Source of the DNA: Alphaproteobacteria bacterium
Lineage (GTDB): Bacteria; Pseudomonadota; Alphaproteobacteria; ATCC43930; CGMCC-115725
Direction of reading: 5' to 3'
Length of the DNA stretch: 34,934 nucleotides
NCBI GenBank assembly: GCA_021325525.1
Contig: JAJPHB010000065.1
Coordinates: 1 to 34,934 of the forward strand
The position numbers were made by a program, and so were the translations under genes. Of the stretch, positions 1 to 13,527 are shown piece after piece; the first letter of the stretch is position 1, and each line of letters begins with the position of its first letter. The notes under the pieces were generated by a model. The model was not told the DNA's origin, did no database searches, and saw nothing but the letters and a program-made list of their open reading frames with translations.

Positions 1-68
1 CCCCGGAGGGGAGAGGGTTTTGCAGAAGGCTGCGGTAGAGAGGATCCGCGAGCGAAAGCGTCCCGGCC

Positions 69-1682
69 CTACTCCTTCTCGATGTTCCAGAGGACCAGGC
101 GGGCGGTGTCGAGGACGCCGTGCAGGTTCTTGCGGTAGGCCGTCGGCGCCAGGAACTGCGCCGGCGGGATATAGGGGACGACCTCGTAGAAGCGCTTCTG
201 CATCTCCTCGACGACCTGCTTCTGCGCCTGCGGCGTCGTCGCGTCGAAGAAGGAGAGGCGCAGCTTCTCGAGTTTTTCGTCGCACGGCCAGCCGAACCAG
301 TTCGATTTGTCGCAGGGCGTCGGCAGGCCGATATTGGTGAGCGGGCTGTCCATGGCGAGACCGCCGCCCCAGGTGAAGAAGATGTTCCAGCCGCCCGGAT
401 TCTTCTCGGGGCTATCCTTGATCGGGCGGCGGCTCGTCATCGTGCTCCAATCCATCGCCTGGAGATCGACATTGACCCCGGCCTGGCGGAGCTTGTCGGC
501 GGTGACGAGAGCCTGGACATGGGCGAGGTGCTGGTCGGTCGGATCCATGAGCACGACCTTCTCGCCCTTGTAGCCGGCCTCCTTGAAGAGCTCCTTCGCC
601 TTGGCGATGCCTGCCTTGGGGTCGAGCTTCGGCCAGTCGCCGATCCCGGCCTTGGTCGCGAGCGGCGTGCCGCAGACGAGGACCGCCCAGCACGGCACTT
701 CGAGCTTCTCGTCGCCCACCATGCCGTCGAGGTAATCCTTCTGGTTGCCGACGAGGTAGAGCAGCGCCTGCCGCGCCTTCACATTGTCGAAGGGCGGCAC
801 CAGGCTGTTGGTGCGCATGATCGCCTGCGTGCCGACATGGTCGATGACCTTGACGACGATGTCGGGATTCTTGCGCAGGACCGGCAGGAGGTCGGGCGAG
901 GGAATCTCGATGGCGTCGACCTCGCCATTGGCGAGGGCCTGCACCGCCGTCGCCGCCTCCGGCAGATAGATCCATTCGACCCGGTCGACCTTGGCGATCT
1001 TGGCGCCGGCAAAGCCTGAGGGCGGGTCCTTGCGCGGGACGTAGAACGGGTTCTTCTTGTAGACGACCTTGTTGCCGGGGGCCCATTCGTCCTTGGCGAA
1101 GACGAAGGGACCGGAGCCGACATACTCTTGGATCTGGGCGTTGGGATCGACCTTGGCCTCCTTCTCGCGCATGATGAAGAGCGGATTCTCGGGCCCGGCG
1201 AGGGCGATCAGCATGGCGCCGAAGGGCTGCTTCAGGCGAATCTCGAAATCCTGCGCGTCCGTGGCGACGATATCGTCGACATACTTCATCATGGTCTGGC
1301 CCGCCGGCATGCGCGCCGCCCAGCGCTTGATCGACGGAATGACGTCCTTCGTTTCGACCGGCGAGCCGTCGCTGAATTTGAGGCCCGGGCGCAGCTTGAA
1401 GGACCAGACGAGATTGTCCTTGCTGACGCTCCAGCTGTCGACCATCTCCGGCTTCGGCTCGAGCTTGGCGTCGAGCGCGAACAGCACGTCGTAGATCATG
1501 TAGCCGTGGTTGCTGGTGATGTTCGCCGTCGTGAAGACCGGGTCGAGAAGCTTCAGATCGGCTTGGGGCACGATGCGGAGCACCGACTCCGCCTGCGCCG
1601 TGCCGGCCTCCGCAAAGCCGAGCGACGCCGTCAATGCCGCCAGCGCCACGGCGCGGCGCCAGCCAATTCCAATGCCTGCCAT
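69..1682 (-). CDS. ABC transporter substrate-binding protein, family 5 (peptide/opine/nickel type)
   Basis: This 537-residue periplasmic binding protein should capture a peptide-like or other small organic ligand for an ABC importer. A basic N-terminus and hydrophobic stretch (residues 9-30) end in an AQA-type signal peptidase I site near residue 31. The mature part has the family-5 pattern: an early LDPVFTT segment, a W-F-LRPGLKFSDGSP motif near residue 95-107, a GSGPF motif near 190, and FDNVKARQAL near 300. Length fits the DppA/OppA family. A strong GGAGGAG ribosome site sits 5 bases before the ATG. No permease or ATPase gene is adjacent inside the window; they could lie beyond the left edge. 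The ligand cannot be told from sequence, although the divergent CoA-transferase operon suggests an organic acid or amide. Family assignment is firm. Confidence 0.93.
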   Translation of the reverse strand: MAGIGIGWRRAVALAALTASLGFAEAGTAQAESVLRIVPQADLKLLDPVFTTANITSNHGYMIYDVLFALDAKLEPKPEMVDSWSVSKDNLVWSFKLRPGLKFSDGSPVETKDVIPSIKRWAARMPAGQTMMKYVDDIVATDAQDFEIRLKQPFGAMLIALAGPENPLFIMREKEAKVDPNAQIQEYVGSGPFVFAKDEWAPGNKVVYKKNPFYVPRKDPPSGFAGAKIAKVDRVEWIYLPEAATAVQALANGEVDAIEIPSPDLLPVLRKNPDIVVKVIDHVGTQAIMRTNSLVPPFDNVKARQALLYLVGNQKDYLDGMVGDEKLEVPCWAVLVCGTPLATKAGIGDWPKLDPKAGIAKAKELFKEAGYKGEKVVLMDPTDQHLAHVQALVTADKLRQAGVNVDLQAMDWSTMTSRRPIKDSPEKNPGGWNIFFTWGGGLAMDSPLTNIGLPTPCDKSNWFGWPCDEKLEKLRLSFFDATTPQAQKQVVEEMQKRFYEVVPYIPPAQFLAPTAYRKNLHGVLDTARLVLWNIEKE

Positions 1683-1942
1683 CGGTCTCCTCCCTGGCCT
1701 GTTCCCGTCGGCCGCACCGATTTCACGTCAAGCTGCGCCGGCGATCCAGAAAAAACTGTGACGTGACGATCGTCCGATTGGGCGTGGGCGGCGCCAGCCC
1801 CTCACCTCGATCCTCTCCCCGCCAGCGGCCGCCCGCGGGGAGAGGACGTTCGACCCTTGGCGCGGCAGACATGCCGCGGCGGTCTTGTCTCGGCACGTCC
1901 TCCCGTGATTTGCTCCGACCGGCCTGTCTCGGGGAGCTCGCC
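1683..1942. other. Intergenic region between divergent genes
   Basis: About 260 bases separate the solute-binding protein from the CoA-transferase operon, so both promoters must lie here. The only clear structure is a long GC-rich inverted repeat at 1811-1846 (listed separately). I did not find a convincing sigma-70 promoter. The plus-strand reading frame extends far upstream of the CoA-transferase start, but that part is low-complexity and does not resemble the protein family. Confidence 0.5.
1811..1846. repeat. REP-like palindrome (CCTCTCCCCGC type)
   Basis: Two perfect 12-base arms (1811-1822 and 1835-1846, beginning TCCTCTCC) flank a 12-base GC-rich spacer. A CCCCTCACC stretch lies just before. 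The same CCCTCTCC...GGAGAGGG core recurs at 10450, 22261, 24363 and 24433, so this is a diverged member of a dispersed intergenic palindrome family. Confidence 0.7.
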
Positions 1943-2761
1943 ATGAGCGCGATTTTCCGCAGTCTCGACGAGGCGCTCGCCGGCATCGGCGACGGCGCGA
2001 TGCTGGTGGTGCCGCCGGAATATGGCGGCGTTGCCATGGAGGCGACGCGCGCCCTCATCCGCCGCGGACTCCGCGATCTCCATCTCGTGACGCTCCCCGC
2101 CTCATCGCTCCAGGCCGACCTGCTGATCGGCGCCGGCGCCGTCGCCACGATCGAGACTTCCGCCGTCAGCCTCGGCGAGTTCGGGCCGGCGCCGCGCTTT
2201 GCCGCCGCGGTCACCTCGGGCAAAATCCGCATCAAGGACGCGACCTGCCCCGCCATCCATGCGGCGCTGCAAGCGGCGGAAAAAGGCGTTCCCTTCATGC
2301 CGCTGCGCGGCCTCGTCGGTTCCGACCTCGTGGCGCGGCGGCCCGATTGGCGCGTCATCGACAACCCTTTCGCCGCCCGCGATCCGATCGTCCTGCTGCC
2401 GGCGATCCGCCCCGACGTCGCCCTCTTCCACGCGCCGATGGCCGATCGCAACGGCAATGTCTGGATCGGAAGGCGGCGCGAGCTCGCGACCATGGCGCAT
2501 GCCGCGGCGAAAACCGTGGTCACGGTCGAGCGCATCCATGACGGCGACCTTCTCGCGACCGAGGCGAGCGCGGCGGGCGTCCTCCCCGCGCTCTATGTCG
2601 AGGCTGTTGCCGCCGCCCCGCGCGGCGCCTGGCCCTTGCCGCTCGCCGGGGAATATCCGCGCGACGAGGCGCATTGCGCCGAATATGCCCGTCTCGCCGC
2701 GACGGAGGAGGGCTTCCGCCGCTATCTCGACCGCTATGTCTATGCCCGCGCCGCGGCCTGA
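1943..2761 (+). CDS. CoA-transferase alpha subunit, glutaconate CoA-transferase/IpdA-like
   Basis: This 272-residue protein is the first subunit of a family I CoA-transferase pair. The start was set at the ATG before SAIFRSLDEAL because the homologous part begins there; the frame stays open upstream but the extension looks random. Family features include the DLLIGAGAVATIET segment, LGEFGPAPRF, a KDATCPAIHAALQAAEKG stretch, DNPFAARDPIVLLPAIRPDVALFHA, and DRNGNVWIG. The usual N-terminal Gly-rich CoA loop (GGFG type) is replaced by a VPPEYGGVAME sequence. It overlaps the next gene by 20 bases, as expected for co-translated subunits. The substrate is unknown. Relatives act on glutaconyl-CoA or, as IpdAB, open a steroid ring thioester. 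Confidence 0.85.
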   Translation: MSAIFRSLDEALAGIGDGAMLVVPPEYGGVAMEATRALIRRGLRDLHLVTLPASSLQADLLIGAGAVATIETSAVSLGEFGPAPRFAAAVTSGKIRIKDATCPAIHAALQAAEKGVPFMPLRGLVGSDLVARRPDWRVIDNPFAARDPIVLLPAIRPDVALFHAPMADRNGNVWIGRRRELATMAHAAAKTVVTVERIHDGDLLATEASAAGVLPALYVEAVAAAPRGAWPLPLAGEYPRDEAHCAEYARLAATEEGFRRYLDRYVYARAAA

Positions 2762-3506
2762 CGGCGCCTGCCGCGACGAAGAGCTGCTGGCGGCGGTGAT
2801 CCTCCGCCTCATCGCCGGCCTGCGGCATGTCGCGGTCGGCGCGCAGTCGCCCATTCCCGCGACGGCGGCGCTGCTCGCCCGGCATCTCGGCAAAGGCCAG
2901 CCGTTCGTCTCGCTGCTCTCGAGCGCGCGCCACAATTTCTTCACCGATGGCGGGCGCGAGCTCTTCGACTGCGCCGGCCAGGGGCGGGTCGATGCCTTCT
3001 TCCTCTCGGGCGGACAGATCGACGGCGCCGCCAACATCAATCTCGTCGCGATCGGCGATTATGCGGCGCCGCAGGTGCGCTTTCCCGGCTCCTTCGGCTC
3101 GGCCTATCTCTATTACGTCGTGCCGCGCGTCATTCTCTTCCGCCTCGAGCATTCGCGCCGCACGCTCGTCAACAAGGTCGATTTCATCAGCGCGCCGGGC
3201 ACGAGCCCGCCGGGCGTCTATAGGCCGGGCGGCCCCGTCGCGCTCGTCACCAATCGCTGCGTCTTCGCCTTCGACCGCCAGCGCGGGCGCTTCCGCCTCG
3301 AAAGCCTCCATCCCGGCCACACGCTCGAAGAGGTGCTGGATCACACCGGCTTCGACTTCGACCGGCCGGAGCGCGTGCCGCAGACGCCGTCCCCGTCGCC
3401 GGAACATCTCGACCTCATGCGCGGCGTCGTGGCGCCGCTCCTCGCCGAGGTCTATCCGCAATTCGCCGCCACGGTCTTCGGCTTCACCCGACAGGAACAA
3501 TCATGA
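2742..3506 (+). CDS. CoA-transferase beta subunit, GctB/IpdB-like, without the family catalytic Glu
   Basis: This protein of about 254 residues pairs with the upstream alpha subunit. It aligns by eye with glutaconate CoA-transferase GctB through GGQIDGAANIN (about 90-100), IGDY near 104, RFPGSFGS near 113, the LVNKVDFISAPG segment and the SLHPGHTLEEVLDHTGFDFD motif. GctB carries its thioester-forming Glu in an IIVESG strand. The equivalent stretch here reads VSLLSSARHNFF, with no Glu. IpdB also lacks a Glu there and works as a ring-cleaving hydrolase, so this pair may not be a true transferase. The start is ATG 2742, or in-frame ATG 2736, both inside the alpha gene. The end overlaps the next gene by 4 bases (ATGA). 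Confidence 0.85.
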   Translation: MPAPRPDGACRDEELLAAVILRLIAGLRHVAVGAQSPIPATAALLARHLGKGQPFVSLLSSARHNFFTDGGRELFDCAGQGRVDAFFLSGGQIDGAANINLVAIGDYAAPQVRFPGSFGSAYLYYVVPRVILFRLEHSRRTLVNKVDFISAPGTSPPGVYRPGGPVALVTNRCVFAFDRQRGRFRLESLHPGHTLEEVLDHTGFDFDRPERVPQTPSPSPEHLDLMRGVVAPLLAEVYPQFAATVFGFTRQEQS

Positions 3507-4714
3507 ACGCGATAAGCGCCGGCGCGCTCGCCGGCATCAAGGTGATCGACCTGACCCGCGTCTTGGGCGGACCCTATTGCACGCAGATGCTGGGCGATCA
3601 CGGCGCCGAAATCATCAAGGTCGAGCCGCCGCAGGGCGACGAGACGCGCGGCTGGGGCCCCCCCTTCAAGGACGGCGCCGCCTCCTATTTCATCGGCGTC
3701 AACCGCAACAAGCGCGGCATGGCGCTCGACCTCTCGCAGCCGCAGGGGCGCGAGGTTCTGTTCCGCCTCCTCGAGACGGCCGACGTCATGGTCGAGAACT
3801 TCAAGACGGGGACGCTCGAGCGCTGGGGGATGGGCTACGAGACGGTGCTGCAGCACCGCTTTCCGCGCCTCGTCCATTGCCGCGTCTCCGGCTTCGGCGC
3901 CGACGGGCCGCTGGGCGGCTATCCCGGCTATGATGCCGTCATCCAGGGCATGGCCGGACTCATGAGCGTCAATGGCGAGCCCGAGGGCGCGCCCGTCCGC
4001 GTCGGCGTGCCGGTCGTCGACCTCGCGACCGGCATGAATGCGACGATCGCGATCCTGATGGCGCTGCTGGAGCGGGGCCGCTCGGGCAAAGGCCAGTTCG
4101 TCGAAGCCGCGCTCTATGACAGCGCCATCGCCCTCCTGCACCCGCACATGGCGAATTTCTTTCTCGACGGCAAGCCGCCGAAGCGGACCGGCAACGCGCA
4201 TTCCAATATCAGCCCCTACGACCAGTTCAAGACCGGCACCAAGCGCGTCTTCCTCGGCATCGGCAACGACCGGCAATTCGCCCGGCTTTGCGCCGAGATC
4301 GGCCGCCCCGACCTGGCGCAGGATGCGCGCTTCCGCAGCAATGGCGACCGCGTGATGAATCGCGCGGCGCTCCGCGCCGAGCTCGAAGCGGCCCTCGCCT
4401 CCGTCGATGGCGTCGCGCTGACGACGAAGCTGCTCGAGCAGGGGGTTCCCGCCGGCCCCGTCCACGACGTGCCGGAAGTCGTGAGCCACCCCCACACCCG
4501 CCACCGCCAGATGGTCGTCGAGAAGAGCGGCTATCGCGGCACCGGCAATCCGGTGAAGCTGTCGCGCACTCCGGCGAGCGTCCGCAGCGCGCCGCCGCAA
4601 TTCGGCGAAGCCACGCGCGCGGTCCTCGCCGAGGCGGGCTATGCGCCGGCCGAGATCGAAGCGCTGATCGCCGCCGGCATCGCTCTCGCGCCGAAGCGCG
4701 AAGCTGCCGAATGA
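3503..4714 (+). CDS. CaiB/BaiF (family III) CoA-transferase
   Basis: This 403-residue protein should move CoA between carboxylic acids, as formyl-CoA and carnitine CoA-transferases do. It opens with the family signature GIKVIDLTRVLGGPYCTQML, then GADVIKVE-type sequence (GAEIIKVEPP), NRNKRG and LDLSQPQGRE, with VENFKTGTLERWG near 98. Asp173 in GVPVVDLATGM is the predicted aspartyl-CoA residue (Asp169 in formyl-CoA transferase). The C-terminal LLEQGVPAGPVHDVPEV motif is also typical. It overlaps both neighbours by 4 bases (ATGA), so the four genes from 1943 to 5157 form one transcription unit. The substrate is not evident. Having a family I-type pair and a family III enzyme together suggests successive CoA exchanges in one pathway. 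Confidence 0.93.
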   Translation: MNAISAGALAGIKVIDLTRVLGGPYCTQMLGDHGAEIIKVEPPQGDETRGWGPPFKDGAASYFIGVNRNKRGMALDLSQPQGREVLFRLLETADVMVENFKTGTLERWGMGYETVLQHRFPRLVHCRVSGFGADGPLGGYPGYDAVIQGMAGLMSVNGEPEGAPVRVGVPVVDLATGMNATIAILMALLERGRSGKGQFVEAALYDSAIALLHPHMANFFLDGKPPKRTGNAHSNISPYDQFKTGTKRVFLGIGNDRQFARLCAEIGRPDLAQDARFRSNGDRVMNRAALRAELEAALASVDGVALTTKLLEQGVPAGPVHDVPEVVSHPHTRHRQMVVEKSGYRGTGNPVKLSRTPASVRSAPPQFGEATRAVLAEAGYAPAEIEALIAAGIALAPKREAAE

Positions 4715-5157
4715 GCGGAGCGGATGGGAGGGCCCCGCCGCCCGCGACGGAGCGGTCGAGCTATCGGGTCTGGACCTCGGACACGCTGCGCTACGGCGAC
4801 ATGGACCCGCAGCGCCACGTCAACAACGCCGTCTTCTCGACCTTCCTCGAAAGCGGCCGCGTCAGCTTCCTCTATGACCAGGATCTGGCGCTCCGCGCCG
4901 AAGGGTGCGAGTTCGTCATCGTCCATCTGACGATCGATTTCCGCGCCGAGCTGCGTTATCCCGGCACGGTCGATATCGGCAGCCGCGTGCTGCGAATCGG
5001 CCGCAGCTCCTTCACCGTCGGGCAAGGCATCTTCAAGGGTGAGCGCTGCGCCGCGACGGCGGAGAGCGTCCTCGTCCAGCTCGACACCGCGACGCGGCGC
5101 CCGCGGACGCTCAGCCTGCCGCTCGTCTCATGGCTGCGGCAGCACCTCGCCGAATGA
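4711..5157 (+). CDS. Acyl-CoA thioesterase, hotdog fold (YbgC/4-hydroxybenzoyl-CoA thioesterase type)
   Basis: This 148-residue hotdog protein should hydrolyse an acyl-CoA to free acid and CoA. The signature YGDMDPQRHVNNAVFSTFLESGR lies at about 28-50. Asp32 is the expected catalytic acid, with His36 and the paired Asn residues alongside. Later segments LTIDFRAELRYPGTVDIGSRV and SVLVQLD fit the central helix and sheet of the fold. The start is the ATG of an ATGA overlap with the CaiB-type gene, so it is the last gene of the operon. It could clear the thioester made by the upstream enzymes. The acyl group is not predictable. Confidence 0.9.
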   Translation: MSGADGRAPPPATERSSYRVWTSDTLRYGDMDPQRHVNNAVFSTFLESGRVSFLYDQDLALRAEGCEFVIVHLTIDFRAELRYPGTVDIGSRVLRIGRSSFTVGQGIFKGERCAATAESVLVQLDTATRRPRTLSLPLVSWLRQHLAE

Positions 5158-5177
5158 AGCGCCGCCGCACCGGCGCT
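5158..5177. terminator. Possible bidirectional terminator hairpin
   Basis: A perfect 7-bp stem (AGCGCCG / CGGCGCT) with a 6-base loop lies exactly between the convergent thioesterase and actin-like genes and overlaps the stop codon of the latter. There is no T-tract, so it is only a candidate. Confidence 0.4.
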
Positions 5178-6174
5178 ACATGTTCAGCATCGCCGAGGCG
5201 AGCGCACCCTTGGCGGTCGTGTTGAGGGGCTCGCGTGCCAGCGTCACCTCGGAAATCTTGACCGGGAGGTCCGCCGCGGCGACGGCGCGGGCGATGGCGG
5301 GCAGGAAGCCGTCGACCATTGCCGTGCCGCCGGCGCAGACGATCGGAATGGGGCCGGCGAATTTCGGCAGCTTCTTCGACTGGCGAACGGCCTCGCCGAG
5401 CGCCGCCACCGCGGTCTCGATGACATCGGCGTAATAGACCGAGAGGGCGTGATCGACGCCGTTGCCGCCGCGGCCGTTGATGGTGAAGCCGTTCTCCTTG
5501 TGGAGCCGCACCGTCGTCGGCGTCTCGCCCGTCACCGAGGCGGCGCTGTGGTCGATGTAGTCGCCGGCGCGCGTCGTCGCCAGCGACAGGACCGGCAGGC
5601 CGAGATAGGCCAGGCAGATGTTGCACATGCCGCCGCCGAAGCTCATGCCGATGCCGGTGAAGTTGACATCCTTCAGCTCGGCATAGACGACCGCCAGCCC
5701 CTCATTCACCGACTGCGCCTGGTAGCCGAGCCCCTCGAAAATGCGGCCGATCGAGCGCTCGTGGAAGATGAGGTCGGCCTCGCGCTCGGGCGGCGCGCTC
5801 GGGATGCTGAAGCAGATCTTCTCGCCCTTGCCGGCCTTGCCGCAGAGCTGCTCGATGATGAGCTCGATCATCTGCAGGTTCTTGGGCTCGCTGGGGTTGA
5901 GGACGCCGTTCTGCATCGGGCGGCGCGTGTCGCCGTTGAGGAACTTGGCGAATTCGTCGACCCGGTTGCCATAGGCATAGATGCGCTGACCCTCGATCCG
6001 GTGCGCGATGCCTTCGCTGACCAGCATCTTCTCGGTCAGCTTCGTATAGGGCAGATCGATGAAGGCGTTGAGCTGCGGCGTGTAGTGCACTGCGTCCTTG
6101 TTGAGGCTGGCGACGACGATGCGGCTCGTTCCCAGATCGAAGCCCTTGATCGGCTGCGCGGTCGTGCTTGCCAT
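5176..6174 (-). CDS. Actin-like ATPase, MreB/MamK/ParM superfamily, divergent
   Basis: This 332-residue protein has the actin-fold nucleotide site in order. Phosphate-1 loop GFDLGTSRIVVAS is at 11-23, a PMQNGVL segment at 86-92 resembles MamK PLQDGVL, CFSIPSAPP follows at 121-129, a connect-1-like VNEGLAVVYA at 156-165, and an adenosine motif VCAGGTAMVDGF at 279-290. The phosphate-2 loop, normally DxGxGTxD, reads SFGGGMCN at 178-185, so the usual first Asp is Ser. Such proteins hydrolyse ATP and often form filaments. The role here is unknown; magnetosome genes and plasmid partition genes are absent. It lies 85 bases downstream of a coiled-coil protein on the same strand. An AAGGAG site 7 bases before the ATG supports this start. 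Fold confident, function open. Confidence 0.85.
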   Translation of the reverse strand: MASTTAQPIKGFDLGTSRIVVASLNKDAVHYTPQLNAFIDLPYTKLTEKMLVSEGIAHRIEGQRIYAYGNRVDEFAKFLNGDTRRPMQNGVLNPSEPKNLQMIELIIEQLCGKAGKGEKICFSIPSAPPEREADLIFHERSIGRIFEGLGYQAQSVNEGLAVVYAELKDVNFTGIGMSFGGGMCNICLAYLGLPVLSLATTRAGDYIDHSAASVTGETPTTVRLHKENGFTINGRGGNGVDHALSVYYADVIETAVAALGEAVRQSKKLPKFAGPIPIVCAGGTAMVDGFLPAIARAVAAADLPVKISEVTLAREPLNTTAKGALASAMLNM

Positions 6175-6259
6175 TGCGGTGCTCCTTCGGATGTCAGGCC
6201 GGAGTTGGAGGGAAAGACGCCACGGGCAGGCGGGGCATGGGTGCGAGCGTCATCGGGCG

Positions 6260-7129
6260 CTATCGCGGCCGGCGGTCCGACATGAACTCGGCGCGGCGCC
6301 AGGCGTCCTGCGCCGGCGTGCGGACCGGCCGCGCCGGCTGGACCAGCCCCAACCATTCGAGCAGCCGCGCAAGGCGCCGCGCCGTCGGCGGCGGCGCCTC
6401 CGGCGCGCGCTTCACCTCGCGGAAGTCGCGGCTGTCGCGGGTCCTGTTGCGTCCATCGACGGCGTCGATGAGATCGAGAATCCAATTGAAGTCGCGATCG
6501 TGTCCGGTGACGACCTCCCGCGGCGGCGGGCGGCGCGACTCGCGCGCGGGCTCGTCCGGCGGGCTCGGGCGCTCGTCGGGCGCGTCGCGGAAGGCGTGGC
6601 TCGCCTCGCCCGCAGGATGGTAAGGCCGCTCCGCCGCGGCAGGCCCGTCGAAGCGCAGCGACGCCCGCGCCTCGCTCTCGCGCGCCATGCGCTCCAGCAC
6701 ATGCAGAAGCGCGAGGAGCAGCGGCTTCAGCTCGGCCCGCAAGGCATCGCGCACCTCGCGCGCGACGAGATTGCGCTCGGCGGCGGCGAGGGCTGCCGGA
6801 TGTTTCTCCTGCCGTTCGGCGGCGCTGCTGAGCAGCGCGAAGACCCGCTCGTTGAGCCGTGCATTCTCGCGGATGAGGCGTTGAATCTCGGCATCGCGCG
6901 GATCGCTCTCGGAATCGCGCGGCGCCACCCGGATGTCGTCGCCGGCGCCGGCAAGCGGTTCCGCCGGCGGCGCGATCGCCGTCCTGGCGGACGGCCGCAC
7001 CGGCGCCGCCGCGAGATCGTTGGCGGCTCCGTTACGCTCCGCCCCCTCGAAGCTGGGACCGCGCCGCGCCGCGTCGCGCAACGCCACGACGATCTCTTGC
7101 ACGCTGGGTTCGGGACTGCGTTCGGCCAT
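6260..7129 (-). CDS. Hypothetical coiled-coil protein, partner gene of the actin-like ATPase
   Basis: I do not recognise this 289-residue protein. The first 75 residues are Pro/Ala-rich and probably disordered. A charged helical block (about 76-160, from RDAEIQRLIRENARLNERV to LLHVLERMARESEARA) looks like a coiled coil. A Pro/Arg/Glu-rich linker follows (about 165-215). Short C-terminal helices contain DFNWILDLIDAVDG and RLARLLEWLGL. There is no signal peptide or membrane segment. It is the first gene of a probable two-gene unit with the actin-like ATPase, which suggests a filament-binding or adaptor role (inference only). A GAGG sequence about 11 bases before the ATG may serve as ribosome site. 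A TTAACCAT motif lies about 120 bases upstream. Confidence 0.7.
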   Translation of the reverse strand: MAERSPEPSVQEIVVALRDAARRGPSFEGAERNGAANDLAAAPVRPSARTAIAPPAEPLAGAGDDIRVAPRDSESDPRDAEIQRLIRENARLNERVFALLSSAAERQEKHPAALAAAERNLVAREVRDALRAELKPLLLALLHVLERMARESEARASLRFDGPAAAERPYHPAGEASHAFRDAPDERPSPPDEPARESRRPPPREVVTGHDRDFNWILDLIDAVDGRNRTRDSRDFREVKRAPEAPPPTARRLARLLEWLGLVQPARPVRTPAQDAWRRAEFMSDRRPR

Positions 7130-7248
7130 CGAATCTTTCGCCTCGCGCCTCGCTGACCGGCGAGACGGCTGATCTCCGCTTTCCTCGATTGAGCGACCCG
7201 CCGGGCGGGCACTTCGCCACGCTAACTTTTCTTCAACCGCCGCAGAAC

Positions 7249-7256
7249 ATGGTTAA
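7249..7256 (-). promoter_or_regulatory. CtrA-like half-site TTAACCAT
   Basis: On the minus strand this reads TTAACCAT, which resembles the half-site bound by the alphaproteobacterial cell-cycle regulator CtrA. It lies about 120 bases upstream of the coiled-coil/actin-like unit. The same 11-mer context CATGGTTAACA recurs at 13470-13480 before another minus-strand gene. Confidence 0.35.
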
Positions 7257-7280
7257 CAGTTTCTTATCCGAGTCGTTGTT

Positions 7281-7296
7281 TTGTGTCTAGACAAAA
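7281..7296. promoter_or_regulatory. Near-palindrome around GTCTAGAC, possible operator
   Basis: A 16-base dyad with one mismatched pair is centred between 7288 and 7289, inside the divergent regulatory region. No regulator can be named. The HTH-containing protein encoded from 7537 is one possible ligand. Confidence 0.3.
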
Positions 7297-7536
7297 GCAC
7301 CGGACTCGACCTTAAAATTCCCAACATTCAGTAGACGCGTCTGTAAAATGCCACAACATACGGCGTCTGTGCGAGCGAAATCTCGGGTCCGGCGCGATGC
7401 TTGCTTTTTGGCCCGGCTCCGGTGCGGCGATGTCTGCGGAAATAGCGTCCGGCGCAGGGCGGATGCACCGAGCCGGGGCGGCCGGCACCACGCTGACGGG
7501 CTGCGACGACATGCCGGATCAGGCTGACGGGGGGTC

Positions 7537-8388
7537 GTGACCAGGATGGCTGAAGGGACGTTCGGAGCGCTGTGCCGACTCGATCCGGGTTGGCAAGTCT
7601 TCCGCAACCGGCACATCGTCGTCGACGGTGCCCAGTGCCGGATCAATTTCATCATCCTGCACCGGGATTTCGGCATCGGCCTCGTCGTCCTGACACGCGA
7701 GGAGTACAGCGTTCCCGAAATTGCGGTACGGGCGACTCGCACGCTGCTGCGCCAGCGCGGCTTCGAGCGGCGCTTTCCCGGCTTCCTCCCGATCGTCTTC
7801 GTCGCCCTCGACGCGGACAATATCGAAGCGGCGCCGAACCGCATCGCCGCCGCTTTCACCGCCGCGCCTCCGCTCGGGGTCAAGGATGCCGGCTGGGTCG
7901 ATTGGACGGCCGACACCTTCGAGGCGCTGGGCGGCGAGGGAGACGATGAGCCGCCCGAGCCGAGCGGCGCCGCCATCGAAATCGACGATGCGCCGTGGCC
8001 GGCGGCGGGCGCGCGTCGAAGCTGGCGCTTTCCCGTCAAAGGCCGCACCGCCTGGATCGGCGCCGCCCTCCTGGCGCTCGTCCTCTCCGCGACGAGCCTT
8101 GCCGCGTTTCCGGGAGGGCTGGCGCTGCTGCGGCCCCTCGTCTCCGGCCCATCCGCCGCGACGCCGGCCGGCGCCGGCACCGCGCGAGGCGCCGTGCCCG
8201 AGCGCGCGGGCCCGCGCCTCCTCTCCGAGGAGCGCGCCGCCGCCTATCTCGGATTGGACCCGGCGCAGTTCCGCGGCAAGCTGCCGGCGCTGCTGGCCGG
8301 CGGCTTCCCGGCGGCGGAGCCGATCACCGGCAATTTCGACAAGGCCGCGATCGACCGCTGGCTCGACCGGCGCGGAGGACAGGAGTAA
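7537..8388 (+). CDS. Hypothetical single-pass membrane protein with C-terminal helix-turn-helix-like domain
   Basis: This 283-residue protein has three parts. The N-terminal domain (about 10-135) contains NRHIVVDGAQCRINFIILHRD and GIGLVVLT, loosely like the NERD (nuclease-related) core, but catalytic residues cannot be confirmed. One hydrophobic segment (about 171-190, AWIGAALLALVLSATSLAAF) is a likely membrane helix. The C-terminal 50 residues (LLSEERAAAYLGLDPAQF ... FDKAAIDRWLD) resemble the AlpA/MerR-like winged helix seen in many small alphaproteobacterial DNA-binding proteins. A membrane-tethered DNA-binding protein is one reading. Start is GTG 7537 or ATG 7546, and neither has an ideally spaced ribosome site. 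The YfbU gene follows after 58 bases and is probably co-transcribed. Confidence 0.65.
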   Translation: MTRMAEGTFGALCRLDPGWQVFRNRHIVVDGAQCRINFIILHRDFGIGLVVLTREEYSVPEIAVRATRTLLRQRGFERRFPGFLPIVFVALDADNIEAAPNRIAAAFTAAPPLGVKDAGWVDWTADTFEALGGEGDDEPPEPSGAAIEIDDAPWPAAGARRSWRFPVKGRTAWIGAALLALVLSATSLAAFPGGLALLRPLVSGPSAATPAGAGTARGAVPERAGPRLLSEERAAAYLGLDPAQFRGKLPALLAGGFPAAEPITGNFDKAAIDRWLDRRGGQE

Positions 8389-8446
8389 GACCCTTCAGGT
8401 CCGGGGGCGCGCCGAAGGCGCCGCCCGCCGCGCGAGGAGCGCAACC

Positions 8447-9100
8447 ATGAAGCTGAGCAAGATCGATCGCATCATCCTGGCCAATCAATACCGCATTCTC
8501 GAGAAGCTCGACCCGGCCAATGCCGACATCTACGCGACCAACTACCGGGTCCTCGAAAGCGGCTACGAGCTCAATTACGAGGCGCTCGACCTCCGTTTCG
8601 GCAACGGCCTCAGCAAGGAGCAATGCAACGAGGTGCTGCAGATCCTCAACATGTTCGAATCGCTGCACAAGAGCTACCTCGAGAACAAGAAATCGGCTGA
8701 TATCCGCATCGAATCGATCAGCTTTGCCGGCTTCGACGGCACGACGGAGGCCGACTATCTCGGCTATGTCACTTTCCTCATGCACGATGAGGGGCGCTTT
8801 CCTTCGCTGAAGCGCGGCAATCTCGACAGCGGCAAGCCGATGCTGACGGTTTATCGGCGCATGCTCTGGGAATGGGAGAAGAGCCGCGAGAAGCGTCGCC
8901 CGCTGGCCGAAGATCTGCGGCGCATCCAGAGCGCGCGCAACGGCCTGGACGGCATCAGCGAGGAGGTCTGGCGCGCCTTCGCGCCGCGCGGCTTCCCGCC
9001 GCCCGTGTCGCTGCGCACGAATGTCGACGCGCCGCCGTCCCGGCTGCAGAACGGCGCTTTCGAGGACGACCAGAGCGAGGAGGGCGAGGCGCGTCCGTGA
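8447..9100 (+). CDS. YfbU family protein (UPF0304) with C-terminal extension
   Basis: The first 165 or so residues match Escherichia coli YfbU closely by eye: ILANQYRILEKLDPANA, the ESGYELNYEALDLRFG segment, CNEVLQILNMFESLH, and ISFAGFDGTTEADYLGYVTFL. The family is reported to be helical, and its molecular role is not well defined. This copy has 217 residues, with an acidic, Pro-rich tail of about 45 residues beyond the usual end. A clear GAGGAG site precedes the ATG by 7 bases, which fixes the start even though the frame is open upstream. The gene ends 6 bases from the convergent pcaJ-like gene. Its association with a membrane/HTH protein is notable. Confidence 0.88.
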   Translation: MKLSKIDRIILANQYRILEKLDPANADIYATNYRVLESGYELNYEALDLRFGNGLSKEQCNEVLQILNMFESLHKSYLENKKSADIRIESISFAGFDGTTEADYLGYVTFLMHDEGRFPSLKRGNLDSGKPMLTVYRRMLWEWEKSREKRRPLAEDLRRIQSARNGLDGISEEVWRAFAPRGFPPPVSLRTNVDAPPSRLQNGAFEDDQSEEGEARP

Positions 9101-9106
9101 TTGTCG

Positions 9107-9778
9107 TCAGAGCGGCGGCGGCGCCAGCGGCCGCCAGTCGTCGGCGAGCTGGAGCCTCGCCTCGGTCTTCGCCTGCAAGGCGGCAAGGCCGAGCCCTTCG
9201 ACCATTTCCCTGACGACGACGCCGGCGGGGCCGATATCGAGCACGGCGAGGTTGGTGTAGACGCGGCGGACGACCCCGGCCGCCGTCAGCGGGTAGTGGC
9301 AGCGCTGGCGGATGCGCGGCTGGCCGTCCTTCGTCGTGTGCTCGCAAAGAACGCGGACCTCCTTCGCTCCTGCGGCGAGATCCATGGCGCCGCCGACGCC
9401 CGGCGGATAGTCCGGGTCCTCCGTCGTCCAATTGGCGAGATCGCCCGTCTCCGACACTTCGAAGGCGCCGAGCAGCGAATAGTCGAGATGGCCGCCGCGG
9501 ATCATGAGGAAAGCGTCGGTGTGGTGGAAGAAGGCGCCGCCCGGAACGAGGCTGGCCGCCCCCTTGCCGGCGTTGATGAGGTCGGGGTCGCCCTCGCCCG
9601 GCGGCGGCGCCTTGCCGAGGCCGAGAATGCCGTTCTCGCTGTGGAAGACGATTTCGCGCCCGTCCGGGATGAAGTCGGCGACGAGGGTCGGCAGGCCGAT
9701 GCCGAGATTGACGTAGGAGCCGTCCTCCAGATCCTGCGCCGCGCGCCAGGCGATCTGCCGCCGCGACAAAGGCTTCAT
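9107..9778 (-). CDS. pcaJ: 3-oxoacid (3-oxoadipate-type) CoA-transferase subunit B
   Basis: This 223-residue protein is the catalytic subunit of a family I CoA-transferase that moves CoA from succinyl-CoA to a 3-oxo acid. It has the signature VNLGIGLPTLVADFIP (23-38) and the active-site motif HSENGILGLG, with Glu48 as the thioester-forming residue. DDLINAGK-type sequence (DPDLINAGKGAASL), PGGAFFHHTDAF, GGHLDYSLLGAFEV and GGAMDLAAGAKEV all fit PcaJ/ScoB. It overlaps subunit A by 4 bases (ATGA) and follows a BKACE gene, so the acceptor may be 3-oxoadipate or a related beta-keto acid. ScoB is the alternative name if acetoacetate is the substrate. Confidence 0.92.
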   Translation of the reverse strand: MKPLSRRQIAWRAAQDLEDGSYVNLGIGLPTLVADFIPDGREIVFHSENGILGLGKAPPPGEGDPDLINAGKGAASLVPGGAFFHHTDAFLMIRGGHLDYSLLGAFEVSETGDLANWTTEDPDYPPGVGGAMDLAAGAKEVRVLCEHTTKDGQPRIRQRCHYPLTAAGVVRRVYTNLAVLDIGPAGVVVREMVEGLGLAALQAKTEARLQLADDWRPLAPPPL

Positions 9779-10446
9779 CGTCTGCCTCCCACCGCGACGA
9801 CGCGGTCGATGAAGATGCCGGGCGTGACGATCGCCTCGGGATCGAGCGCGCCCAATTGGACGATCTCGCGCACCTGAACGATGCTGAGATCGGCCGCCAT
9901 CGCCATGGTCGGGTTGAAGTTGCGCGCCGATTTCCGATAGGTGAGATTGCCCCAGCGATCGGCGCGGTCGGCCTTCAAGAGCGCGACATCGCCTTTGAGC
10001 GGCTTCTCGAAAACGTAGGCGCGGCCGTCGATTTCGCGCAGCTCTTTGCCCTCGGCGAGCTTCGTGCCGACTCCGACCGGCGAATAGAAGCCGCCGAGCC
10101 CGGCGGCGGCGCAGCGCATGCGCTCGCTGATCGTCCCCTGCGGCACCAGTTCGAGCTCGATCTTGCCGGCCTTGAAGGCGTCATCGAAGGCGGTGCTGTC
10201 GGTCGAGCGAGGATAGGAGCAGATGACCTTGCGGACACGCCCCGCGATGATGAGGCCGGCGAGCCCGTTGCTGCGGTTGCCGGCGTTGTTGGAGACGATG
10301 ACGAGGTCGCGCGCGCCCTGCTCGATGAGCGCGTCGGCGAGCTCATCGGGCGCCCCGACCGCGCCGAAGCCGGCGACGAGGATGGTGGCCCCGTCCTTGA
10401 TCCCGGCCACCGCCTCGGCGAGGGACGCGACGGTCTTGTCGATCAT
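9775..10446 (-). CDS. pcaI: 3-oxoacid (3-oxoadipate-type) CoA-transferase subunit A
   Basis: This 223-residue subunit binds the CoA substrate together with PcaJ. It contains the family signature DGATILVAGFGAVGAPDEL (18-36), VSNNAGN, the CSYPRSTDS stretch, VPQGTISERMRCAAAGLGGFYSP, DRADRWGNLTYRKSARNFNP and a C-terminal TPGIFIDRVVAV. The sequence is closer to PcaI of the beta-ketoadipate pathway than to ScoA, in my reading. The ATG is preceded directly by a GAGGGA ribosome site that is itself one arm of the palindrome at 10450-10473. The upstream BKACE gene ends 52 bases before. Confidence 0.92.
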   Translation of the reverse strand: MIDKTVASLAEAVAGIKDGATILVAGFGAVGAPDELADALIEQGARDLVIVSNNAGNRSNGLAGLIIAGRVRKVICSYPRSTDSTAFDDAFKAGKIELELVPQGTISERMRCAAAGLGGFYSPVGVGTKLAEGKELREIDGRAYVFEKPLKGDVALLKADRADRWGNLTYRKSARNFNPTMAMAADLSIVQVREIVQLGALDPEAIVTPGIFIDRVVAVGGRR

Positions 10447-10449
10447 GTC

Positions 10450-10473
10450 TCCCTCTCGCCCCGGGGAGAGGGA
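10450..10473. repeat. REP-like palindrome overlapping the pcaI ribosome site
   Basis: Arms TCCCTCTC and GAGAGGGA (8 bp perfect) flank a partly self-complementary GC centre. On the minus strand the arm nearest the start provides the GAGGGA ribosome site 3 bases from the pcaI ATG, so a hairpin in the mRNA would hide it. The core matches the repeat family seen elsewhere in this window. Confidence 0.6.
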
Positions 10474-10497
10474 TGTCTTCGGAGAGCCAGCGACATC

Positions 10498-11436
10498 CTA
10501 GAACGCCACGCGGTCGCCGCCCTTCAATTGCAGCAGCGCCCGCGCCTCGGTCGGCGTCGCGATTTCGAGCGACAAATTCTCGAGGATGCTGCGGATGCGG
10601 CGCACCTGCTCGGCATTCGATTTCGCGAGCTGGCCCTTGCCGACATAGATCGAATCCTCGAGGCCGACGCGGACATTGCCGCCCTGGATCGCCGCCATGG
10701 TGACGAAGGGGAGCTGGTGGCGCCCGGCGGCCAGCACCGACCAGGCATATTGGTCGCCGAACAGCTTGTCGGCGATGCGCTTCATATGGGCGAGGTTCTC
10801 GGGATCGGCGCCGATGCCGCCGAGAATGCCGAAGATCGTCTGCACGAAGAGCGGCGGCTTCACCAGCTTGCGGTCGAGGAAATGCGCGAGGTTGTAGAGG
10901 TGCCCGACATCGTAGCATTCGAACTCGAAGCGCGTGCCGTGCCCTTCCCCCAGCTCCCGCAGCACATGCTCGATATCCTTGAAGGTGTTGCGGAAGATGA
11001 AGTCGCGCGAGGCTTCGAGATGCTTCCTCTCCCAGTCGTATTTGAACTCCTTGTAGCGGTCGAGCATCGGGTAGAGGCCGAAATTCATCGACCCCATATT
11101 GAGCGAGCACATCTCGGGGCTGGCCTTGAGCGGCGCCGCCAGGCGCTCGGCTAGGGTCATGCCGTGGCCGCCGCCCGTCGTGATGTTGATGACGGCGTCG
11201 CAGGACTGCTTGATGCGCGGCAGGAACTGCATGAAGACGCCGGGATCGGGCGTCGGGCGCCCGTCCTTGGGATCGCGCGCATGGAGGTGGATGATGGCGG
11301 CGCCCGCCTCCGCCGCCTCGATCGATTGCTGCGCGATCTCGTCGGGCGTCAGCGGCAGGTAGGGCGTCATGGTCGGGGTGTGAATCGACCCCGTGACCGC
11401 GCAGGTGATGATGACCTTGCCCGATTTGCCAGCCAT
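10498..11436 (-). CDS. BKACE family beta-keto acid cleavage enzyme (DUF849)
   Basis: This 312-residue TIM-barrel metalloenzyme is expected to condense a beta-keto acid with acetyl-CoA to give acetoacetate and a new acyl-CoA. Family features are TCAVTGSIHTPTMTPYLP near the N-terminus, the zinc motif HLHARD (His50, His52), ITTGGG near 85-90, MCSLNMGSMNFG near 109-120, GILGGIGAD near 203, and VGLED (Glu260, Asp261) with the third metal ligand. A strong AGGAGG site lies 8 bases before the ATG. It heads a unit with pcaI and pcaJ. One plausible role is handling 3-oxoadipate or carnitine-derived keto acids, but the substrate class cannot be fixed without modelling the pocket. Confidence 0.92.
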   Translation of the reverse strand: MAGKSGKVIITCAVTGSIHTPTMTPYLPLTPDEIAQQSIEAAEAGAAIIHLHARDPKDGRPTPDPGVFMQFLPRIKQSCDAVINITTGGGHGMTLAERLAAPLKASPEMCSLNMGSMNFGLYPMLDRYKEFKYDWERKHLEASRDFIFRNTFKDIEHVLRELGEGHGTRFEFECYDVGHLYNLAHFLDRKLVKPPLFVQTIFGILGGIGADPENLAHMKRIADKLFGDQYAWSVLAAGRHQLPFVTMAAIQGGNVRVGLEDSIYVGKGQLAKSNAEQVRRIRSILENLSLEIATPTEARALLQLKGGDRVAF

Positions 11437-11489
11437 GTGGCGCCTCCTCCTGGTGCCGGGCTGCTCCCGTCCCGGCCGAGGCGCCTATT

Positions 11490-12707
11490 TCACCCGTTCG
11501 CGGCGATGAAGTCACGCACCTTCGGATAGATTTCGGTGCGCCAGCGGCGGCCGTTGAAGACGCCGTAGTGACCGACCTTGGGCTGGAGGTGATGGCGCTT
11601 CATCGCCGCCGGCAGGCCGGTGCAGAGCTCGTGCGCCGCCGCCGTCTGACCCACGGCGCAGATATCGTCATTCTCGCCCTCGACGGTGAGGAGCGCCGTG
11701 CGCCGGATCGCCGCCGGCTCGACCCGCCGCCCGCGCGAGGCGAAGCGGCCGAGCGGCAGCGCATGCTCCTGGAAGACGCGGGCGATGGTTTGAAGGTAGA
11801 AGTCGGCCGGCAGGTCCATGACGGCAGTGTATTCGTCATAGAAGCGCTTCGTCGCCTCGGCGCTCTCGCCGTCGCCGCGCACGAGATGCTTGAAGAGATC
11901 GAAATGCGCCGAGACGTGGCGGTCGAGATTCATCGTCATGAAGCCGGCGAGCTGCAGAAAGCCGGGATAGACGCGGCGGAAGGCGCCGGGATAGCGCGCC
12001 GGCACCGTCTCGATGACGTTGCGCTCGAACCATTCGAGCGGGCGCGACGTCGCGAGGCGGTTGGGCTGCGTCGGGTTGCGCCGCGTATCGATGGGGCCGC
12101 CCATCAGCGTCATCGAGGCGGGCTGCGCCGCATCGCCATCGGCCGCCATCAGCGAAACGGCGGCGAGGACCGGCACCGAGGGCTGGCACACGGCGACGAC
12201 ATGGGTGCGGGGTCCGAGATGGCGGAGAAAAGCCACGACGAGATCGATGAAGTCGTCGAGGCCGAAGCGGCCGTGGAAAAGCGGCACGTTTCGCGCATTG
12301 ATCCAATCGGTGATGTAGACGTCGTGCTCGGGCAGCAGCGTCTCGACCGTGCCGCGCAAGAGCGTGGCGAAATGGCCGGAGAGCGGCGCCACGACGAGAA
12401 CTCGCGGCTGACGCTCGCCGCCGGGCTTCTCGAAATGGCGGAGCGTGCAGAACGGGTGCGCCAGCACCTCCTCCTCGAGGACCGGAAGGGTCCTGCCGGC
12501 GACGACCGTCTCGACGATCGCGAATTCCGGGCGGCTGTGGCTGATCCCCGCGCGCGCGACCATCTCGCAGGCGGCGGCGACGCTGCGAACGAGCGGATGA
12601 TCGCCGAGGAGCGGCCAGGGCTGCGCGAGGAAGCCGCGGGCCGCCTGCGCCATCAGGCGAATCGGCATGAGGACGTCGTTTTGTGCTTGGTAAGCCTGGT
12701 AGAGCAT
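11490..12707 (-). CDS. phaZ: Intracellular polyhydroxybutyrate depolymerase
   Basis: This 405-residue protein should hydrolyse or thiolyse stored PHB granules. It begins with the typical LYQAYQAQNDVLMPIRLMAQ sequence. The nucleophile is Cys174 in VAVCQPSVP, the Cys-type lipase box of PhaZa1-like depolymerases. GENDDIC (Asp347 or Asp348) and VGHYGVFNGRRWR (His380) give the rest of the triad. YITDWINARNVPLFHGRFGLDDF and the C-terminal EIYPKVRDFI are family landmarks, and there is no signal peptide, consistent with a cytoplasmic granule enzyme. An AAGGAG sequence sits somewhat far (13 bases) before the ATG. Products could feed the CoA-transferase and BKACE genes downstream on the same strand. 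Confidence 0.95.
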   Translation of the reverse strand: MLYQAYQAQNDVLMPIRLMAQAARGFLAQPWPLLGDHPLVRSVAAACEMVARAGISHSRPEFAIVETVVAGRTLPVLEEEVLAHPFCTLRHFEKPGGERQPRVLVVAPLSGHFATLLRGTVETLLPEHDVYITDWINARNVPLFHGRFGLDDFIDLVVAFLRHLGPRTHVVAVCQPSVPVLAAVSLMAADGDAAQPASMTLMGGPIDTRRNPTQPNRLATSRPLEWFERNVIETVPARYPGAFRRVYPGFLQLAGFMTMNLDRHVSAHFDLFKHLVRGDGESAEATKRFYDEYTAVMDLPADFYLQTIARVFQEHALPLGRFASRGRRVEPAAIRRTALLTVEGENDDICAVGQTAAAHELCTGLPAAMKRHHLQPKVGHYGVFNGRRWRTEIYPKVRDFIAANG

Positions 12708-12907
12708 GTCGATCGCTACCGCTCCTTGGCTGCGGCGGCCGCTCTCGCGCCGGCCTTCGCCGGAACGCCGCCGATACTGTGCCTTCGACAGGAGGATGGG
12801 CTGGGACGGGCTGCCACACGGCTCCTTTAGGGACCGCGCCGCGGCGGGTCAAGTCTCGACTTTACCGCGCGAAATCGAAAACAGGCCTAACTTGCGGTTC
12901 TGCCTCG

Positions 12908-13444
12908 TCAAGCCGCGGCGGCGAGGGCTTCCTCGGGCGGAAGCGCGGTGTAGCTCGGCAGGCCATGGCTCACCAGCAGCTCGCGAATCGCCTGCTCGGG
13001 AATGCCGATGAAGGCGCGGTAGAGGCTCTGCAGCACATAGGTGAAGGCGGGGCCGTGGAGGCGATCGTCCGGGACAAGAAGATGCGCCGATTCGTGCAGG
13101 ATGAGGAAACGGTAGAGGCAGCCATCCTCGATCAGAATGCGGTTCCGCCGGACATCGGCGAAGCCGCCGACCCGCGGATCATCGAAGCCGGAAACGATGC
13201 GCAGCTCGGGAAGCCGGCGCCCGCACGCCTCGAAGACGCTGCGGATGAGCCGGGTCGCGCTGTCGACACCGAGGATCCGGTGGCCTTCGGGGTAGCGGGA
13301 GAAGAGCGCATCTTCCCAGCAGCACAGCATCGCCCGGTAATCTCTATTGCTGCTGCCGCGCGCGCTGGCCGCCGCGACGCCTTCACTCAAGATGCGTTGT
13401 GCCGAATGTATAAAGCGCGCCTGCATCGAGCGCCCCCGAGCCAT
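12908..13444 (-). CDS. Putative zinc metallopeptidase, SprT-like HEXXH protein
   Basis: This 178-residue protein has a metal motif RFLILHESAHLLVPDD with His117, Glu118 and His121, followed by HGPAF with His130 as possible third ligand. The HEXXH-x8-HGPxF arrangement resembles SprT/WLM-type zincins. Before it come conserved-looking strands (LPELRIVSGFDDPRVGGFADV and NRILIEDG), and after it helices ending in an Ala-rich tail. There is no signal peptide, so it should be cytoplasmic. The N-terminal start is uncertain: ATG 13444 or in-frame ATG 13426, neither with a strong ribosome site. A TTAACCAT motif lies 27 bases upstream. I cannot name a substrate; protease function is inferred from motifs alone. 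Confidence 0.7.
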   Translation of the reverse strand: MARGRSMQARFIHSAQRILSEGVAAASARGSSNRDYRAMLCCWEDALFSRYPEGHRILGVDSATRLIRSVFEACGRRLPELRIVSGFDDPRVGGFADVRRNRILIEDGCLYRFLILHESAHLLVPDDRLHGPAFTYVLQSLYRAFIGIPEQAIRELLVSHGLPSYTALPPEEALAAAA

Positions 13445-13470
13445 CAGAGACCCGGGAATGCTGCGATGCC

Positions 13471-13478
13471 ATGGTTAA
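13471..13478 (-). promoter_or_regulatory. CtrA-like half-site TTAACCAT
   Basis: This minus-strand TTAACCAT lies 27 bases before the putative metallopeptidase start, in an AT-rich gap. It shares the 11-mer CATGGTTAACA (plus-strand sense) with the site at 7248-7258. Confidence 0.35.
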
Positions 13479-13527
13479 CAAAGGATTTCCGCCGCGCGCC
13501 GCGGCGGCACGATCCGTAACCGGCGGT

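Follow-up and report, generated by a model that had tools for sequence, protein, structure and literature searches.

A bacterial member of the volactin family encoded beside a conserved partner with a predicted coiled coil in Alphaproteobacteria

A 34,934-nucleotide stretch of alphaproteobacterial DNA, here named the window, encodes an actin-like protein that belongs to the known volactin family, in which it represents a new bacterial branch, and that is accompanied by a partner gene. The two open reading frames are on the minus strand, the first encoding the partner (289 amino acids, positions 6260..7129) and the second the actin (332 amino acids, 5176..6174), with a gap of 85 bases between them, as described in a first-pass annotation of this DNA. 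The reading that we favour, and consider somewhat probable, is that a dedicated adaptor with a coiled coil uses a short amphipathic helix to grip the volactin filament. No description of this two-gene pairing was found in the open-access literature, where we also met none of bacterial or viral volactins; the words volactin, phage, partner and operon do not occur in the available portion of the salactin paper (PMC10746226).

The first-pass annotation had proposed an undescribed filament system. Membership of the actin superfamily and a conserved, adaptor-like partner were upheld, but "undescribed" was not, since the 332-residue protein matched the Pfam Volactin family (PF25216) with 238.3 bits (2e-70; curated cut-off 35 bits), residues 10-328 covering positions 3-321 of the 321-position profile. 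This full-length match rules out an undescribed actin family. PF25216 takes its name from volactin of Haloferax volcanii (VolA, HVO_2015), and volactin has been known as an actin-like filament protein of salt-loving archaea. The window protein is 33-35% identical over 96% of its length to homologues on haloarchaeal plasmids (not to HVO_2015 itself).

The actin-type phosphate-1 (GFDLGTS), connect-1 (VNEGLAVVYAE) and adenosine (CAGGT) motifs were found as previously quoted, with their key residues kept in relatives. Invariant among 39 aligned relatives are the D, G and T of phosphate-1 DLGTS (residues 13-17; 6124..6138, minus strand), E158 of connect-1 NEGLA (E151 in the alignment numbering; residues 157-161; 5692..5706, minus strand) and the GG of the adenosine motif GGT (residues 282-284; 5323..5331, minus strand), together with S, G, G and N of the phosphate-2 loop SFGGGMCN (residues 178-185; 5620..5643, minus strand). 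The unusual loop is thus present, but it is a family trait and not a peculiarity of the window protein: the pattern S[FY]GxGxxN replaces the DxGxGTxD form of phosphate-2 in 107 of 109 rows (window and redundant rows counted), L088 and L118 being the two outside it. The haloarchaeal homologues L051 and L052 share an S-F-G-x-G-M-x-N loop.

Searching solved structures with the window actin as a single sequence gave nothing meaningful. A profile of the 39 relatives matched 5ljv (2.4e-12) and 5jyg (2.7e-12), both entered as "Actin-like ATPase", as well as MreB (7.9e-7), indicating that the window protein belongs to the actin superfamily. We take 5ljv and 5jyg to be MamK filament entries, in which case MamK provides the closest solved structures by profile. 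However, the phosphate-2 loop differs from that of MamK, no magnetosome gene was recognised among the window proteins scanned, and membership of the MamK family was ruled out by the score against NCBIfam NF040964 (26.1 bits versus a cut-off of 400); the NCBIfam matches of the window actin to MamK and salactin were all weak and far below threshold. MreB is also of the actin superfamily and its structures are matched by the volactin family profile, but membership was ruled out by the loop, which is SFGGGMCN and not DxGxGTxD, and by MreB-like and MreC-like frames on another contig. On that contig (L003) a canonical-looking MreB (DIGGGTTE) lies beside the MreC-like frame, the names of both being assigned from sequence; this genome therefore has volactin in addition to an MreB. 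An AlphaFold2 model of the actin, made from only 6 close sequences, had a mean pLDDT of 40.3.

The scanned window proteins other than the pair were assigned by Pfam to CoA-transferases, a PHB depolymerase, SUF proteins and other families of this kind. None of those scanned was encoded by mreC, rodA, ftsZ, partition or magnetosome genes, in line with what the first-pass annotation had said of the neighbourhood. Two frames adjoin the partner-gene side in divergent orientation, a 283-residue frame without a Pfam family (7537-8388) and a YfbU-domain protein (8378-9100).

A homologue of the partner was found directly upstream of volactin, on the same strand, in seven of seven distinct alphaproteobacterial loci (the window, contig C101 of the same genome, the sister genome, L043, L044, L046 and L047), at distances of -4 to 153 bases, the two genes of L043 overlapping by 4 bases. 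When the six genomes that contain these loci were searched with a partner profile, seven copies were recovered, every one beside a volactin gene and none elsewhere; the pairing is therefore constant and the two genes are present one to one. A search for the pairing across Alphaproteobacteria had been suggested at the outset, and no homologue lacking the partner and standing without conserved context was encountered. Within about 6 kb of the pair (positions 1-13500 in the window), no other neighbour was common to the loci apart from those of L046 and L047, which are closely related (volactins 93% identical), and one match between L044 and the window. Since other neighbours are mostly unshared, volactin and its partner can be regarded as a conserved unit. 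The L044 match involves CoA-transferase-like frames (L044:4028-5446 and window:3503-4714, 33% identity) on opposite sides of the pair, and is probably a case of paralogy.

The genome that contains the window has two volactin copies, in the window and on contig C101, while the sister genome has one (its locus carries the same protein sequences as L045). The C101 copy (genome G000, L150:5968-6972) is 76% identical to the window volactin and has its own partner, with no neighbourhood gene common to the window. Comparable volactins were not found in the remaining 41 of the order's 43 genomes, nor in the remaining 384 of 385 sampled across the class. In a sample of the phylum, 16 of 398 genomes matched, one being the same genome and the other 15 falling in three families. 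A scan of named genomes recovered at least five loci, in Acetobacteraceae or Rhodospirillales metagenome-assembled genomes, a count that could be larger in truth given the poor patterns used. Matches were obtained in 2 of 299 genomes from the family of one of these metagenome-assembled genomes and in 2 of 299 from the order of another, all of them among the loci already known from the named genomes. Within the genomes searched, the alphaproteobacterial clade is thus very rare and scattered. Its volactins, 66-76% identical to the window copy, formed one clade in the tree (100/100), on a long stem and with an unsure position.

Sequence divergence is greater in the partner, with 33-44% identity to the window copy versus 66-76% for the actin. 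Conservation is concentrated in an N-terminal motif, EP[ST]VxE[IL]xxALR, and in parts of two long helices, with segments NARLNERI..LL and LRPVL..LL..LE, and little else; the window protein can be described as a motif helix followed by a linker, a coiled coil and a variable tail. The motif reads PSVQEIVVALRDAARR in the window (7061..7108, minus strand), is present in all seven partners and is proposed to be the volactin-binding helix. An AlphaFold2 model, usable for helices only, placed helices at residues 77-109 and 116-158 (6656..6901 for residues 77-158, minus strand), with block-mean pLDDT of 72-84 from residue 81 and 62 for residues 71-80. These predicted helices, parts of which are conserved, are consistent with a coiled coil, as first-pass annotation had predicted; the "disordered start" that it also described does not apply to residues 10-22, which are a predicted helix and belong to its most conserved regions, a long low-confidence stretch starting only at residue 26.

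In outline, the pair resembles ParM and ParR, where the adaptor gene likewise neighbours that of the actin; the ends of ParM filaments are bound by ParR, as stated in PMC6599009. A DNA segregation system of this kind, in which the partner would bind a centromere-like site and the actin would push DNA, is in our view quite unlikely here. The two-gene layout with the adaptor upstream would suit it, and flanks that for the most part differ between loci point to a mobile module. However, the window actin belongs to a different family, and searches of Pfam, NCBIfam and PHROGs found no known or DNA-binding domain in the window's partner (PHROGs gave a single chance-level match, E 0.26). Partner isoelectric points are 4.8 to 5.3 in four of the seven loci (4.8-9.1 over all seven), and the scanned neighbours in the window are mostly metabolic genes. 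Upstream of the pair, the three of seven loci examined had no repeat array, only short repeats of two or three copies and imperfect inverted repeats, and the ParMRC assignment was rejected.

Volactin relatives are common in viral contigs, where 193 were confirmed among 218 pattern-matched stretches and the best 80 were kept (L055-L134); the contigs bear IMG/VR labels, and some could be cellular. Two further volactin records, of 485 and 595 kb, are called uncultured phage, and some of the volactin-bearing viral contigs exceed 200 kb. This abundance, and the grouping of another proteobacterial clade with the viral rows of the tree, would fit a window pair that is a phage-gene leftover without cellular function, which we consider very unlikely. 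Against this, both genes are open and conserved in seven loci of six genomes, two diverged intact copies coexist in one genome, and the alphaproteobacterial clade stands apart from the viral rows (100/100). Pfam recognised no phage genes among the scanned window proteins. A phage origin of the pair was also rejected on the PHROGs results, with nothing for the actin and the chance-level match for the partner.

By a crude choice of genes, a same-strand frame was found at most 250 bases upstream of volactin in 74 of the best 80 viral loci. These upstream proteins were sorted by C-terminal patterns composed after reading the sequences: 16 of 74 are short, with a hydrophobic stretch and IETSFGxxRIG; another 18, also short, terminate in a variant of IPxF..KxKFG; a further 18 fit a loose pattern for a short amphipathic helix at the end, such as LDEAAKALKALRKS; and 22 are of other kinds. 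The end peptides of the first two classes were present in none of 72 downstream genes, while the loose helix pattern was found in 18 of 74 upstream versus 7 of 72 downstream genes. Within the final 90 residues, 10 of 74 upstream but 0 of 72 downstream genes have a pattern resembling FIPS or FIPT. Ten neighbour and volactin proteins were compared with PHROGs: a downstream neighbour matched a head-tail adaptor (3.7e-6) and an upstream protein a family whose function is unknown (0.0065), while the remaining eight had no match.

Upstream proteins of other kinds accompany volactin elsewhere. In Natrinema and Haloarcula, the protein encoded upstream has about four hydrophobic segments, judged by eye, and an acidic tail that bears the motif; both proteins (L051:2974-3897 and L052:2920-3828) belong to Pfam DUF7139, whereas in the window this place is taken by the soluble-looking coiled-coil partner. 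Among 14 control genomes, H. volcanii alone exceeded the cut-off for volactin, and likewise alone that for DUF7139. In other Pseudomonadota (L137-L148; L030, L031, L035, L040), volactin is preceded by a small protein with a hydrophobic segment, also judged by eye, that ends in SVEDVARKLASMQ or similar. The four of these loci that were read further upstream each have a second, coiled-coil-like protein there, with a somewhat similar tail, which resembles FimV by eye.

The similarity of the short helices was assessed with a 14-position motif model derived from 12 viral upstream proteins, with instances chosen by eye before testing and scores compared with those of shuffled sequences. In leave-one-out tests, which covered 11 of the 12 instances (L054 being outside that table), ten proteins were recovered at p <= 0.04 and L074 was not (p 0.71). 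The model matched both haloarchaeal tails examined (p 0.006 and 0.001). In four loci of other Pseudomonadota, it matched the end of the first upstream protein every time (p 0.002 to 0.053) and gave no significant match to the second upstream protein in any. In 12 of 14 loci of other Pseudomonadota, the upstream protein carries the motif at its very C-terminus (4.7 to 11.7 bits), and in two it does not; the 12 rows are homologous and hence not independent cases. In the background, 3.1% of 1516 open reading frames reach 6.5 bits and 1.7% reach 9 in their last 60 residues. These comparisons lend moderate support to a link among the motifs of viral, haloarchaeal and other-Pseudomonadota upstream proteins, with the reservation that homologous rows are not independent.

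For the alphaproteobacterial partners, in which the motif is N-terminal and not C-terminal as in the others, the N-terminal motif was the best match of the viral model in five of seven proteins (p 0.002 to 0.26), while for the window partner and L045 taken singly the best match fell elsewhere (p 0.42 and 0.19). When the seven motifs were scored together as an aligned block, the result was 7.9, the highest score in 5000 column permutations being 5.3 (p 0.0002); none of 51 other ungapped segments from the partner alignment scored above -3.6. On sequence grounds, a link between this motif and the helices beside other volactins, including the C-terminal helix of some viral upstream proteins, is suggestive. 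Applied to the 63 viral upstream proteins outside the model, the viral model did no better than in controls (6 at p<0.05 versus 5 of 72 downstream genes), and at least two of the six were near-copies of model rows, which indicates that the helix marks only part of the viral loci. The alphaproteobacterial partners also served to build a narrower model, which likewise failed to distinguish viral upstream proteins (p<0.05 in 1 of 52, versus 4 of 47 downstream).

In the mechanism that we favour, volactin would bind ATP and form dynamic filaments, and the partner would dimerise or oligomerise through its coiled coil, clustering volactin-binding sites. By analogy with ParM and ParR, the amphipathic helix at the partner's N-terminus (P[ST]VxE[IL]xxALR) would dock on volactin, and the partner would link filaments to one another or to whatever its variable tail holds. 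The variability of these tails suggests that the cargo differs between species. For the volactin pair we infer ATPase activity, polymerisation, direct binding of the partner and a cargo. PilM and FtsA are non-cytomotive actin-fold scaffolds, and volactin could instead be a protein of that sort, binding a partner peptide and recruiting a complex without long filaments. We consider this unlikely, although the combination of an actin fold with a neighbouring partner that bears a short terminal helix would suit such a scaffold, and the altered phosphate-2 loop would agree with it. The best structural relatives by profile, MreB and the proteins that we take to be MamK, are filament formers, and neither PilM nor FtsA nor pilus genes were detected among the scanned window proteins. 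The founding volactin, that of H. volcanii, forms dynamic filaments in vivo according to PMC10869688.

Under the preferred adaptor mechanism, a partner whose helical tag resembles tags beside other volactins hints at how these filaments grip their targets. With a neighbour-encoded adaptor that carries a short helix, what holds volactin filaments would become testable with one peptide, and the window pair offers a small two-gene bacterial system for testing volactin attachment. A broader rule, that in archaeal, bacterial and phage volactins the upstream gene encodes an adaptor gripping the filament via a short terminal peptide, is possible, and we propose it only tentatively. The peptide would be the amphipathic helix in one broad group, with two other viral classes having conserved end peptides of their own, and the adaptor body would be of membrane type in haloarchaea, would contain a hydrophobic segment in other Pseudomonadota and a coiled coil in the alphaproteobacterial clade, and in viruses would belong to unknown proteins. 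In H. volcanii, the tips of volactin filaments bind the membrane, as reported in PMC10869688, which makes DUF7139, encoded upstream of volactin in Natrinema and Haloarcula, a candidate membrane anchor; if the shared rule were true, the factor holding these tips at the membrane would be a DUF7139 protein. No mention of DUF7139 was found in the open-access literature. Two more DUF7139 matches (L164 and L165) were observed on a Natrinema plasmid (CP031304.1, near 51.5-52.0 kb), far from its volactin gene; they overlap by a few bases and together span the family.
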